Shown one piece after another: positions 10,908 to 34,880 of a stretch of 59,458 nt of DNA. The notes under the pieces were generated by a model. The model saw only the letters and a program-made list of their open reading frames with translations, did no database searches and was not told where the DNA came from. Source of the DNA: a virus; IMG/VR virus record IMGVR_UViG_3300037246_000768, positions 1 through 59,458 of that record, one strand, 5' to 3'. Made by a program: the position numbers and the translations under genes. Every line of letters begins with the position of its first letter. Within the stretch, counting starts at the first letter, position 1.

Positions 10908-11897
10908 CTAGACGGCGCGCAGGATCATGTAGGCCAGCTTGTGAGCGGTGCTCGGGTCGGCAGACATCGTCACCGTCAGGGTGTCAGCAGTCAACACCGA
11001 TTTCAAGATGGTGTCGGTGTCGTCGGTTGCGCCGTAGCAAACGATAGCAACGTCAGTCGCGAGTGCGCCGGCGACCGTGATTGCTTCGGCAGCTGCGCCA
11101 CCAACGGTTGTGTGCAGACCGGCATAGGCGATGAAGTGGCTCGGTACGCAGCCGCCGACAGGTCGGAGGACTACATAGTGGAGCGCGTGTACCGTGCTCG
11201 GGTCGGCAGACATTGTTACCGTAACCGTATCTGCGGTGCAGATGGTGTCGGAGATCGTGTCGGTGTCGTTGGTGGCTGCGTAGACGGCAATCGCGATGTC
11301 AGTTGCCTTGACTCCGGTTACCGTGATCGCTTCGGCAGCTGCGCCGCCAAGCGTGGTGTGCGTACCGGCTGCGAAAACCTCGAAGCCCGGTACGCCGCCT
11401 GCGCGCAGGAGTGCGAATCCGTACGAGTGGACGGTGCTCGGGTCGGCTGAACCGAGGATGGTGAGCCGCCCGCCAGAGGCCAAGGCCGCAAGGATCTGGT
11501 CGTTGTCGTCGCTTAGGGTGTGGCCAACGACTGCGACATCACCGGGAGCCTGGACTGCCTGCAGGGGGATTACTTCCGTTGCGTCGCCGCCGATTGAGGC
11601 GACATCGCCGCCTGCTACGATGGCATAGCCGCCTGCGGCCGCGCCTACAGAGCGGAAAGATGCGGAGGTGGTGCTGCCCTGGTTCACGTAGCGAGCTACC
11701 TGGCCAAGGGCGGCGTCGGACTTGACGAATACGCATCCTACTGCGTAGCCAGCGGCGCCGTCAGCGGGTACGGTCTCGCCGTATACGTCGCGTGCGTTGC
11801 CTAGCGCGTCGCGTGCGACAACCTGGGCGGCGGCAGGATCTCCCTTGTCGCCAATCTGATGAAGGGTGCCTACGGTTACATTTTGAAAAGTTGCCAT
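10908..11897 (-). CDS. Repeat-containing capsid decoration-type protein
   Basis: 329 residues. After an N-terminal domain of about 90 residues (residues 18-60 resemble head-decoration style sequence) there are three related units of about 75-80 residues. Each has T-GG-A-EAI-V, then D(I/V)A(I/V), then ADPST-H, ending in -LR. The DNA shows the same periodicity. It lies directly below the coat-protein genes, consistent with a decoration or outer capsid fibre protein; this is inferred. Confidence 0.6.
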   Translation of the reverse strand: MATFQNVTVGTLHQIGDKGDPAAAQVVARDALGNARDVYGETVPADGAAGYAVGCVFVKSDAALGQVARYVNQGSTTSASFRSVGAAAGGYAIVAGGDVASIGGDATEVIPLQAVQAPGDVAVVGHTLSDDNDQILAALASGGRLTILGSADPSTVHSYGFALLRAGGVPGFEVFAAGTHTTLGGAAAEAITVTGVKATDIAIAVYAATNDTDTISDTICTADTVTVTMSADPSTVHALHYVVLRPVGGCVPSHFIAYAGLHTTVGGAAAEAITVAGALATDVAIVCYGATDDTDTILKSVLTADTLTVTMSADPSTAHKLAYMILRAV

Positions 11898-11936
11898 GTG
11901 ATTCTCCTTCGTTACGTAAGGATGGTTTAAACAGCA

Positions 11937-23052: not shown

Positions 23053-23128
23053 TGGTGCTTTGGGCAGGGCTCGAACCTGCGACCTAGCGGTTATCGACCG
23101 CTTGCTCTGCCACCTGAGCTACCAAAGC
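23053..23128 (-). tRNA. tRNA, probably Ile (GAT), CCA encoded
   Basis: Read on the minus strand, a full cloverleaf is present: acceptor GCTTTGG/CCAAAGC, D arm GCTC/GAGC, anticodon stem AGCGG/CCGCT, five-base variable region, T arm GCAGG/CCTGC with TTCGAGC loop, discriminator A and encoded CCA. The anticodon loop is TCGATAA, giving GAT at 23095-23093 but C instead of the near-universal U at position 33. Isotype is inferred from the loop position alone. It lies in the late operon between rusA-like and 91-residue genes. Confidence 0.85.
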
Positions 23129-27617: not shown

Positions 27618-27745
27618 CGCTCCCTATCCTCTCCCACACATCCATCGACTACCTGTACCTGCTTGGCGCTTCGTGCTTTTGCGTAGGTTTGGCGCTGGGG
27701 CTCTTGATTGCTGTGTGCGTCAAGCGCTGGGATGGCGACGCATGA
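27614..27745 (+). CDS. Small single-TM protein
   Basis: 43 residues with one transmembrane segment (YLLGASCFCVGLALGLLIAV) followed by a KRW basic stop. ATGA overlaps on both sides place it in the operon. Confidence 0.6.
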   Translation: MTLPILSHTSIDYLYLLGASCFCVGLALGLLIAVCVKRWDGDA

Positions 27746-29256
27746 TTATCACGCAGCACGAGAAGAAGCGCAGCCGTAAGCTCTACTGGGTTCTCCTGCC
27801 AGTCTGCGACGAAGAAGACGGCTACATGGCGGAGCTTTTCATTAAGCCAGAAGTCGCACTCAAGGAATCCCGCTGGGACGCAAAGGCCGGACGTAAGAGC
27901 TATTACACCTACAATGAACCACTCAAAAACGTTATAGAACAGCGGTTTACGCATAACGACGCAGGAGGAGACACCGACATGGAAGCAATCGACTGGCGAG
28001 AACTGACAGCCAACAGGCTCTACACCGCTGGTGCGCAGGAGCTACGCAAGGCGGCCAGCGCCAAGGCCAAAGAGCTATGGCCGGAGCGTTCACGCACGAT
28101 CATCACGAAGGGGTGGAAGGCTGCGCATTGCAGGAGTTTTTTGCAGAACAACGTCTGGACGTATACCGCAGACGAAGGGCAGCCGAGGGAACAGCTGGAC
28201 ACACCAGCGGAGCGCCACCACGACACACACTTAGAGCGCGAGATACCCACCGAAACGCCTGTGATGACGCCAGAAGAGGTAAATAGAATGCTTGACGACG
28301 AGCCAGAGCCGACCCCCGCACCAGTCAAGGCGAAGAAGACCAAAACCCCACCGCTCGACCCTTCCGACCCAATGGCAGCTATGGCTGCGCTCTTCGCGCC
28401 TTACCTGAATACGAAAGTAGACGAGGAAGACGTGAAGCGCATCGTGCGTGAAGAGGCCGGGCTGCGCCCCAAGCGCGTGGTTATCGACCTGCCAGTGCTA
28501 GACGCAGAGATCGACGCAGGCATCGCGCACGAGTCCTTCCCCCGTCTTCTGTCCTGGCTCGCTATCGGGATGAACGACGCAGAGATCCCCCGCATAAATC
28601 CAATGCTTGTTGGCCCCCCTGGCACTGGCAAGACGCACGCAGCGCACGCAGCGGCGACCGCTTTGAAGCTGGAGTTCTACACGATCAGCGTAGGGGCGCA
28701 GACCACGAAGTCTGACCTTCTGGGATTCGTAGACGCACAGGGGCGCATCGTACGCACGCAGCTGCGCGAAGCATACGAGCATGGCGGAGTTTTCCTGCTA
28801 GACGAGATCGACGCAGGCAATGCGAACGTCTTGACGATCTTGAACGCAGCGCTGGCGAATGGCATTTGCCCTTTCCCCGACAAGCAGATCATCAAGCACG
28901 AGAATTTCAGGTGCGTAGCGGCTGCGAACACCTACGGCAGGGGCGGAGATCGTCTCTTCGTCGGGCGTAACCAGCTAGACGCAGCGAGCCTCGACCGCTT
29001 CACCAATATGTACTGGGACGTGGACGAGCGGCTAGAAGCGCAGCTGGCGCTTGACGCAGATTGGACGAAGTATGTGCAGAAAATGCGCAGGGGCGCACAG
29101 TCTATCAAGGCGAAAGTCGTTATCTCCCCCCGTGCTTCGATCAATGGCGGTTTGCTGGTGAAGCTCGGCGAGAAGTGGGACGACGTAGAAGAGGCGGTAC
29201 TCTTCAAGGGCATCCCCCAGGAGCTACGCGAACAGATCAAGCGCGCAGCCAACTAA
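27742..29256 (+). CDS. MoxR-like AAA+ ATPase
   Basis: 504 residues from ATG 27742 (overlaps the previous stop). A second start at ATG 27979 (425 residues) has a stronger AGGAGGAG site and may give a shorter form. The AAA+ core shows GPPGTGKT (near 290), FLLDEID and a sensor-type AAANTYGRGGD block, with an arginine-rich end. MoxR-type ATPases remodel partner proteins; the partner is probably the next gene. The N-terminal 80 residues are a separate unknown domain. The stop is one base before the hammerhead ribozyme. Confidence 0.85.
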   Translation: MIITQHEKKRSRKLYWVLLPVCDEEDGYMAELFIKPEVALKESRWDAKAGRKSYYTYNEPLKNVIEQRFTHNDAGGDTDMEAIDWRELTANRLYTAGAQELRKAASAKAKELWPERSRTIITKGWKAAHCRSFLQNNVWTYTADEGQPREQLDTPAERHHDTHLEREIPTETPVMTPEEVNRMLDDEPEPTPAPVKAKKTKTPPLDPSDPMAAMAALFAPYLNTKVDEEDVKRIVREEAGLRPKRVVIDLPVLDAEIDAGIAHESFPRLLSWLAIGMNDAEIPRINPMLVGPPGTGKTHAAHAAATALKLEFYTISVGAQTTKSDLLGFVDAQGRIVRTQLREAYEHGGVFLLDEIDAGNANVLTILNAALANGICPFPDKQIIKHENFRCVAAANTYGRGGDRLFVGRNQLDAASLDRFTNMYWDVDERLEAQLALDADWTKYVQKMRRGAQSIKAKVVISPRASINGGLLVKLGEKWDDVEEAVLFKGIPQELREQIKRAAN

Positions 29257-29257
29257 A

Positions 29258-29311
29258 CTCTGCTGACGAGTCTGGCCGGATACCAGACGAAACGCCGCGA
29301 GGCGTCCAGAG
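29258..29311 (+). ncRNA. Type I hammerhead ribozyme
   Basis: All core elements are present. Stem I is CTCTG (29258-29262)/CAGAG (29307-29311). Core CTGACGA is at 29263-29269. Stem II is 29270-29275/29283-29288 with a seven-base loop. GAA is at 29289-29291. Stem III is ACGCC (29292-29296)/GGCGT (29301-29305) with a GCGA tetraloop, then C17 at 29306. Predicted self-cleavage is after 29306, 38 bases upstream of the next ATG. Every invariant base fits. Confidence 0.92.
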
Positions 29312-29344
29312 AATCCGATAACGACCACATAGAAAGGGCAAACC

Positions 29345-30193
29345 ATGAGACAGCAAGGCGAAAGGGTTGAAGAGCTAAAAGACCGCTACGCTATCCACAC
29401 CAGCGGCCTTCACGACTGCATGAGCATTTGCGAGGAGGCGGTTGCCAACACTGAGCGCAAGACGCAATACTCTGCGGAAGGGGGCTATGAGCGTACGAGC
29501 TTCACCAAGACGCGAGACTGGGCGCACTGCTTAGAACTGGCGCGCACTGGATGGGACGAGGGCAGGGGCAAGCTGCAAACCGAATTTGACAAGCTACACG
29601 GTGACGGCGACGTGCCTGAAAACGCTTCCTACTCATGGCAGGAACAAGGCGAGTTCTTTGATATGGGCGCGGTAATGAGCGGCGAGCCTGAGTGCTGGAT
29701 GGTTTGCGACCAAGACCCTAAGCGGCAGGTTTGGAAGATTACCGCAAATATAGGAATGTCAGCCGTTATCCCCGCAGCAAGCGCGACACACCGCGGCGCA
29801 GCTATCATGGCGCTAGTTGAAGCGCTACAAGATCAGGGGCACATAGTAGAATTAGAGGCAGTCGATGGGGCGAGAAACTGGAGCGAAAGATACAAAAAGC
29901 CCCTGCACATAACGATACCGCTGGGCATTACCCCCTTAGACCTAGGCACCGCCGCCTTCGTCCTCGCGCATCCCAGCATGTCACGCAGGGTAGTCTACGC
30001 ATTAACCGAGTATTCAGACACCCAGGAAGGGAACAGCCATTACGGAGCGCCATGGGACGCGCCCGAATGCAAGACCGACATCGCAAAGCGCACCATCTAC
30101 ATCGACGCCAAAAACGACACCTGGAGAAAATTCAAAACCATGAACGGCGCACGCAGCTGGCTCAAGGAGTACACCGATTATATTCAGGGCTAG
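29345..30193 (+). CDS. Partner protein of the AAA+ ATPase
   Basis: 282 residues from ATG 29345 after GAAAGGGC. It is alpha/beta with an acidic, Trp-containing middle and a C-terminal segment with RTIYIDAKNDTW. Genes of this size often follow phage MoxR-like ATPases; I recall a DUF7192-type family but cannot confirm it. It is transcribed through the hammerhead, which would release it as an mRNA with a 5'-OH end. Function unknown. Confidence 0.65.
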   Translation: MRQQGERVEELKDRYAIHTSGLHDCMSICEEAVANTERKTQYSAEGGYERTSFTKTRDWAHCLELARTGWDEGRGKLQTEFDKLHGDGDVPENASYSWQEQGEFFDMGAVMSGEPECWMVCDQDPKRQVWKITANIGMSAVIPAASATHRGAAIMALVEALQDQGHIVELEAVDGARNWSERYKKPLHITIPLGITPLDLGTAAFVLAHPSMSRRVVYALTEYSDTQEGNSHYGAPWDAPECKTDIAKRTIYIDAKNDTWRKFKTMNGARSWLKEYTDYIQG

Positions 30194-30210
30194 TCTCCCC
30201 CTTGGTTAGT

Positions 30211-30233
30211 GCCTCGCTCTCAAGGAGCGGGGC
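30211..30233 (+). other. Stem-loop in intergenic leader
   Basis: GCCTCGCTC-tcaag-GAGCGGGGC forms a 9-bp stem (one G-U) before the next gene. CTGACGA follows directly but GAAA is absent, so it is not a complete hammerhead. It may be an mRNA structural element. Confidence 0.45.
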
Positions 30234-30283
30234 GCTGACGAAGCGGTAGACCACAACGACAACCCGAACAGAGGAGAGAAATC

Positions 30284-34817: not shown

Positions 34818-34856
34818 AGAAGGGCTCCTCACACACGCGGGGAGCCCTTCTTTTTT
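34818..34856 (+). terminator. Intrinsic terminator of the rightward operon
   Basis: AGAAGGGCTCC/GGAGCCCTTCT stem of 11 bp followed by TTTTTT. Perfect match. Confidence 0.93.
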
Positions 34857-34880
34857 GCTGTTGGTGGTGTGGTGCGTGCG

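Follow-up and report, generated by a model that had tools for sequence, protein, structure and literature searches.

The window, a 59,458-nt stretch of viral DNA, carries on its + strand a gene for an AAA+ ATPase (27673–29256) followed by a gene for a DUF7192 protein (29345–30193). Domain and PHROG matches place the upstream gene among AAA+ proteins of the AAA_5/MoxR kind (AAA_5 E-value 1.7e-17; PHROG 249, CobS/MoxR-like), and its true start may lie further in, at about 27742. The downstream gene matches PF23822 and PHROG 1909. Just past its stop codon we found a 16-bp intercistronic hairpin without a T-run (30205–30239, + strand; −44.1 kcal/mol, z −3.8), which forms the core of a larger structure spanning 30189–30251. 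A strong terminator lies at 34818–34858 (+), the probable end of the + strand unit. The same stretch weakly resembles ctRNA_p42d (27.9 bits against a gathering threshold of 50) and is most likely a plain strong terminator. A tRNA gene (62.9 bits) lies at 23056–23128 on the − strand. The description of the locus as an early operon derives from gene layout only. DNA-level and single-protein searches of phages and viral contigs returned no close relatives of the locus.

Between the two genes, at 29258–29311 (+), lies a type I hammerhead ribozyme motif in which all invariant core bases are present, together with three perfect stems and a GUC cleavage site. The 5’ strand of stem I (CTCTG, 29258–29262) pairs with CAGAG at 29307–29311 and is followed by the catalytic core segment CTGACGA (C3 to A9, 29263–29269, with G8 at 29268). 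Stem II (29270–29288) joins GTCTGG at 29270–29275 to CCAGAC at 29283–29288 around the loop CCGGATA (29276–29282), and leads into the core GAA (G12, A13 and A14; 29289–29291). Stem III (29292–29305; ACGCC/GGCGT) is closed by the A15.1-U16.1 pair (A29292-T29305) and capped by a GCGA tetraloop (29297–29300). By analogy with hammerhead chemistry, cleavage is predicted 3’ of C17 (C29306), between 29306 and 29307. Motif and fold thus show the marks of the type I class: the core CUGANGA, GAA, A15.1-U16.1, H17, and three helices with stem I open. Minimum-energy folding of the region gives precisely the hammerhead (−20.7 kcal/mol, z −2.0). The initial annotation had described a complete type I hammerhead beginning one base past the ATPase stop; we recovered every one of its elements at the same positions, and the AAA+ gene indeed ends in TAA at 29254–29256, one base before the motif. 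From the cleavage point to the next ATG (29345) the distance is 38 nt.

We then considered whether the motif could be a chance resemblance. A strict three-stem descriptor (full core and at least 4, 4 and 4 stem pairs) had no match in random sequence of the same composition (80 Mb of strand-bases), and the core pattern was absent from 100 shuffles. The type I model of Rfam, RF00163, scored the site at 24 bits against a gathering threshold of 34, so the above-threshold match that the initial annotation had proposed as a check was literally not obtained. That threshold is a database cut-off and expresses no structural requirement. Because the Rfam score was weak, we trained a covariance model on 60 aligned hammerheads from other phage contigs, leaving the window out. 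This model gave the site 46.6 bits, with an E-value of about 1e-12 (2e-12; E-values from this model are rough), while the next match within the window reached 10.6 bits, leaving 29258–29311 as the sole credible one. Stem covariation among the phage hammerheads was left out as independent evidence, since the hits had been picked for pairing and the argument would be partly circular. The low Rfam score is what speaks for chance; set against the empty random sequence and the score from the phage-trained model, it leaves that explanation extremely improbable. By sequence criteria, we regard 29258–29311 as a real and near-certainly functional hammerhead.

Two further candidates in the window were rejected. 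A possible second hammerhead at 11853–11913 (+) has two weak stems of 3 bp each, runs antisense to the genes and was missed by the model, and a second CTGACGA, at 30235–30241, falls within the 16-bp hairpin and has no GAA or GUC partner. A search with Rfam models gave no credible member of other ribozyme or riboswitch families near the locus.

The initial annotation had passed over a further feature. Loop II contains CGGAU (29277–29281), which is exactly complementary to AUCCG just 3’ of stem I (29313–29317), and the five resulting pairs would form a pseudoknot, a predicted tertiary contact between loop II and the stem I side. We compared this with the other phage hammerheads listed, permuting their flanks. 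Among those with loops of 6–7 nt, 11 of 28 had at least four pairs between loop II and the 3’ flank, against 3.7 by permutation, and none of 1000 permutations reached the observed count. Loops of at least 8 nt gave 8 of 18 against 4.0, and for short loops the excess was weak. Perreault et al. (2011; PMC3088659) showed for other hammerheads that cleavage at physiological Mg2+ is fast only with such pseudoknots.

To place the ribozyme in its genetic context, relatives of DUF7192 were located with a degenerate motif in 77 stretches of viral contigs. A same-strand AAA+ gene was detected upstream of 86 of the 91 DUF7192 genes, mostly directly before them; the remaining DUF7192 genes lay at locus ends, or no AAA+ gene was found for them. 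The AAA+/DUF7192 pair is therefore conserved, in agreement with the earlier placement of the ribozyme between a MoxR/CobS-like AAA+ gene and its partner. At eight of the loci a single AAA+ gene is followed by a pair of DUF7192 genes that lie a few kb from each other. We modelled the structure of DUF7192 from 50 relatives (pLDDT 85); the best match of this model was the VWA domain of NorD (E-value 3.7e-5, with a low TM-score of about 0.3). NorD is the partner of the AAA+ protein NorQ. The model thus hints at a degenerate VWA domain, as in the NorQ/NorD pair, a likeness that we treat as a lead because the TM-scores are low.

The relatives differ in what lies at the junction. In most of them the AAA+ and DUF7192 genes overlap or are closely spaced, so splitting the transcript is not needed for the pair. 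Among 68 distinct junctions, 25 had gaps of less than 35 nt, 13 of 35–59 nt and 30 of at least 60 nt. Hairpins with 9 bp or more were found in 27 of these 30 long gaps, compared with 1.7% of shuffles. Just 3 of the 30 had a T-rich tail, and most junction hairpins are therefore unlike intrinsic terminators. These plain hairpins, like the one past DUF7192 in the window, would suit a reading in which the window’s element is only a stabilising 3’ end or a structure of the RNase III type, its self-cleavage incidental or lost. However, the window preserves the full dozen of catalytic core positions as well as the closing A-U pair and the pseudoknot, none of which a plain hairpin would need, and we consider that reading very unlikely.

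Three long junctions lacked a hairpin of that length: that of the window, which has the hammerhead; that of the Tunturiibacter phage Tunturi_4, which has a twister-P5 ribozyme (62 bits); and that of locus L186. Twister-P5 also occupies the junction of locus L191, where its internal stem is the hairpin counted above. L191 and Tunturi_4 are syntenic relatives, which rules out independent origins, and we count twister-P5 at the junction as one event in one lineage. Between the two, the sequence of the twister stems has changed completely and the pairing has been kept. Across the 50 other whole records that contain the pair, twister-P5 occurred at six sites, all in L191 and Tunturi_4, and no hammerhead was found; at this junction the window's phage is the only one with a hammerhead. 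Locus L074 has a hammerhead directly after DUF7192, with the stop codon within the core. Four of the twister-P5 sites belong to Tunturi_4, a phage isolate, and include one on either side of DUF7192; they lie in successive intergenic gaps (PP885687, 58349–63149; L126, 10450–15250), in a region for which the record annotates CDS only. The occurrence of unrelated ribozymes at one junction in two lineages is suggestive, not proof. Since a single phage, with some 115 genes, has four twister sites, we estimate the chance that two ribozyme classes coincide at this junction at a few to about ten percent. Tunturi_4 also encodes a permuted tmRNA (L125, 43532–43941; 79 bits, gathering threshold 47), near a release factor gene with an RF-1 domain.

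Next, we asked how the window’s hammerhead compares with those of other phages. The intact core pattern was present in at least 119 viral contigs, while a control pattern that has C for G at core position 5 was found in 9, none with three stems. Including that of the window, the listed loci contain 171 strict hammerheads, 153 of them distinct. The phage-trained model found at least one match in 7 of 8 whole records and a maximum of 8 in a single record, and several phage contigs hold 5–8 hammerheads each. Gene context was read from open reading frames and not from a trained gene caller. Among the 134 listed hammerheads with enough flank, 72% adjoin a stop codon that ends an upstream frame, and in 59% an ATG follows 15–50 nt past the cleavage point. 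Both spacings held for 45.5%; the corresponding figures were 1.5% at random positions and 0.7% for the other strand. In 23 of 146 listed hammerheads, the upstream frame stops at the TGA inside the core. The neighbouring genes are varied and include RNA polymerase, thymidylate synthase, ligase, an anti-restriction protein, primase and many of unknown function. Given these spacings and the variety of neighbours, the position and layout of the window’s hammerhead are those usual for phage hammerheads. The stem II sequence of the window recurred in three contigs, beside unrelated genes. At five of the loci, hammerheads are directly followed by a recurring motif like CCTTGTGGTGTAGG in place of a start codon, and perhaps process another RNA.

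The initial annotation had judged a hammerhead placed as an mRNA divider to be unusual. This no longer stands: a layout in which the ribozyme adjoins the upstream stop and the next start follows 20–45 nt on is common in phage contigs, and Perreault et al. (2011; PMC3088659) already proposed that hammerhead clusters process (pro)phage transcripts. The same paper demonstrated cleavage by several of these hammerheads and thus describes active tandem copies in prophages.

Such abundance raises the alternative that the hammerhead is real and active, that its cutting has little regulatory effect, and that it is a neutral or mildly selfish module spread among phages, lying between genes because insertions are tolerated there. 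Hammerhead arrays do recur between unrelated genes, and the AAA+/DUF7192 pair mostly does without a hammerhead. Against this, the spacing to stop and start is very tight and the strand bias strict, the twister that another lineage carries at this junction kept its structure through the complete change of its stems, and hairpins fill the same place in other relatives. We therefore think a neutral module unlikely, though clearly less so than a mere stabilising structure.

The reading that we favour, and consider likely, is that a pseudoknot-stabilised type I hammerhead serves as a protein-free, cis-acting intercistronic processing site between AAA+ and DUF7192; from the motif, its improbability, its position and the comparative pattern we infer catalysis, the nature of the new ends and an effect on expression. 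As the initial annotation had proposed, the placement suits the splitting of the two coding regions. Self-cleavage of the + strand transcript would fall between 29306 and 29307. Stems II and III, the body of the ribozyme, would stay on the AAA+ message and form its structured 3’ end, which would carry a 2’,3’-cyclic phosphate, and the DUF7192 message would start with a 5’-OH and a 38-nt leader (29307–29344) with a free ribosome-binding site (AAAGGG, 29333–29338). Since a 5’-OH and a structured 3’ end each change how decay enzymes reach an RNA, the two messages can differ in lifetime. Cutting would in this way uncouple the stability of the messages for the putative AAA+/VWA pair, and with it the dose of the two proteins.

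A broader and more doubtful proposal treats hairpin, twister-P5 and hammerhead as interchangeable RNA punctuation at the AAA+/VWA boundary, with hammerhead cutting gated by translation. Gating is suggested by the upstream stop, which abuts the core or lies inside it: a terminating ribosome might cover the hammerhead core, block its folding and so delay cutting, a hypothesis drawn from geometry only.

In 2017, the role of prokaryotic and phage hammerheads was described as an open question (PMC6155905). The AAA+/DUF7192 locus makes this function testable, because a single complete ribozyme sits in a conserved two-gene module whose relatives show three alternatives: no gap, a hairpin or another ribozyme class. 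The quantified layout, with the upstream stop adjoined and TGA overlapping the stop, likewise suggests a rule that reporters could test. Hammerheads between phage genes, and this type of placement, were already known. What is new here is the conserved AAA+/DUF7192 pair, whose long junctions nearly always carry a strong hairpin, with twister-P5 or a hammerhead as substitutes.

The closest known systems are the prophage hammerheads (Perreault et al., 2011; PMC3088659), which have the same core, three stems and a pseudoknot in the region of stems I and II, and which lie between phage genes and were proposed to process long transcripts. Those are clustered, whereas the window’s hammerhead is a single copy in its contig, within the conserved AAA+/DUF7192 pair. 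It shares with RF00163 (Hammerhead_1) the type I topology with an open stem I. In contrast to that family, its stem I lacks both a distal helix and an internal loop, and the pairing partner of loop II is the 3’ strand only. The twister-P5 of Tunturi_4 (RF02684) is likewise a self-cleaving RNA at the homologous junction, but of an unrelated class and present in four copies, two of them flanking DUF7192. In T7 early mRNA, RNase III hairpins cut the polycistronic phage message between genes and need a host protein to do so; the intergenic cutting is similar, while here the RNA is predicted to cut itself.
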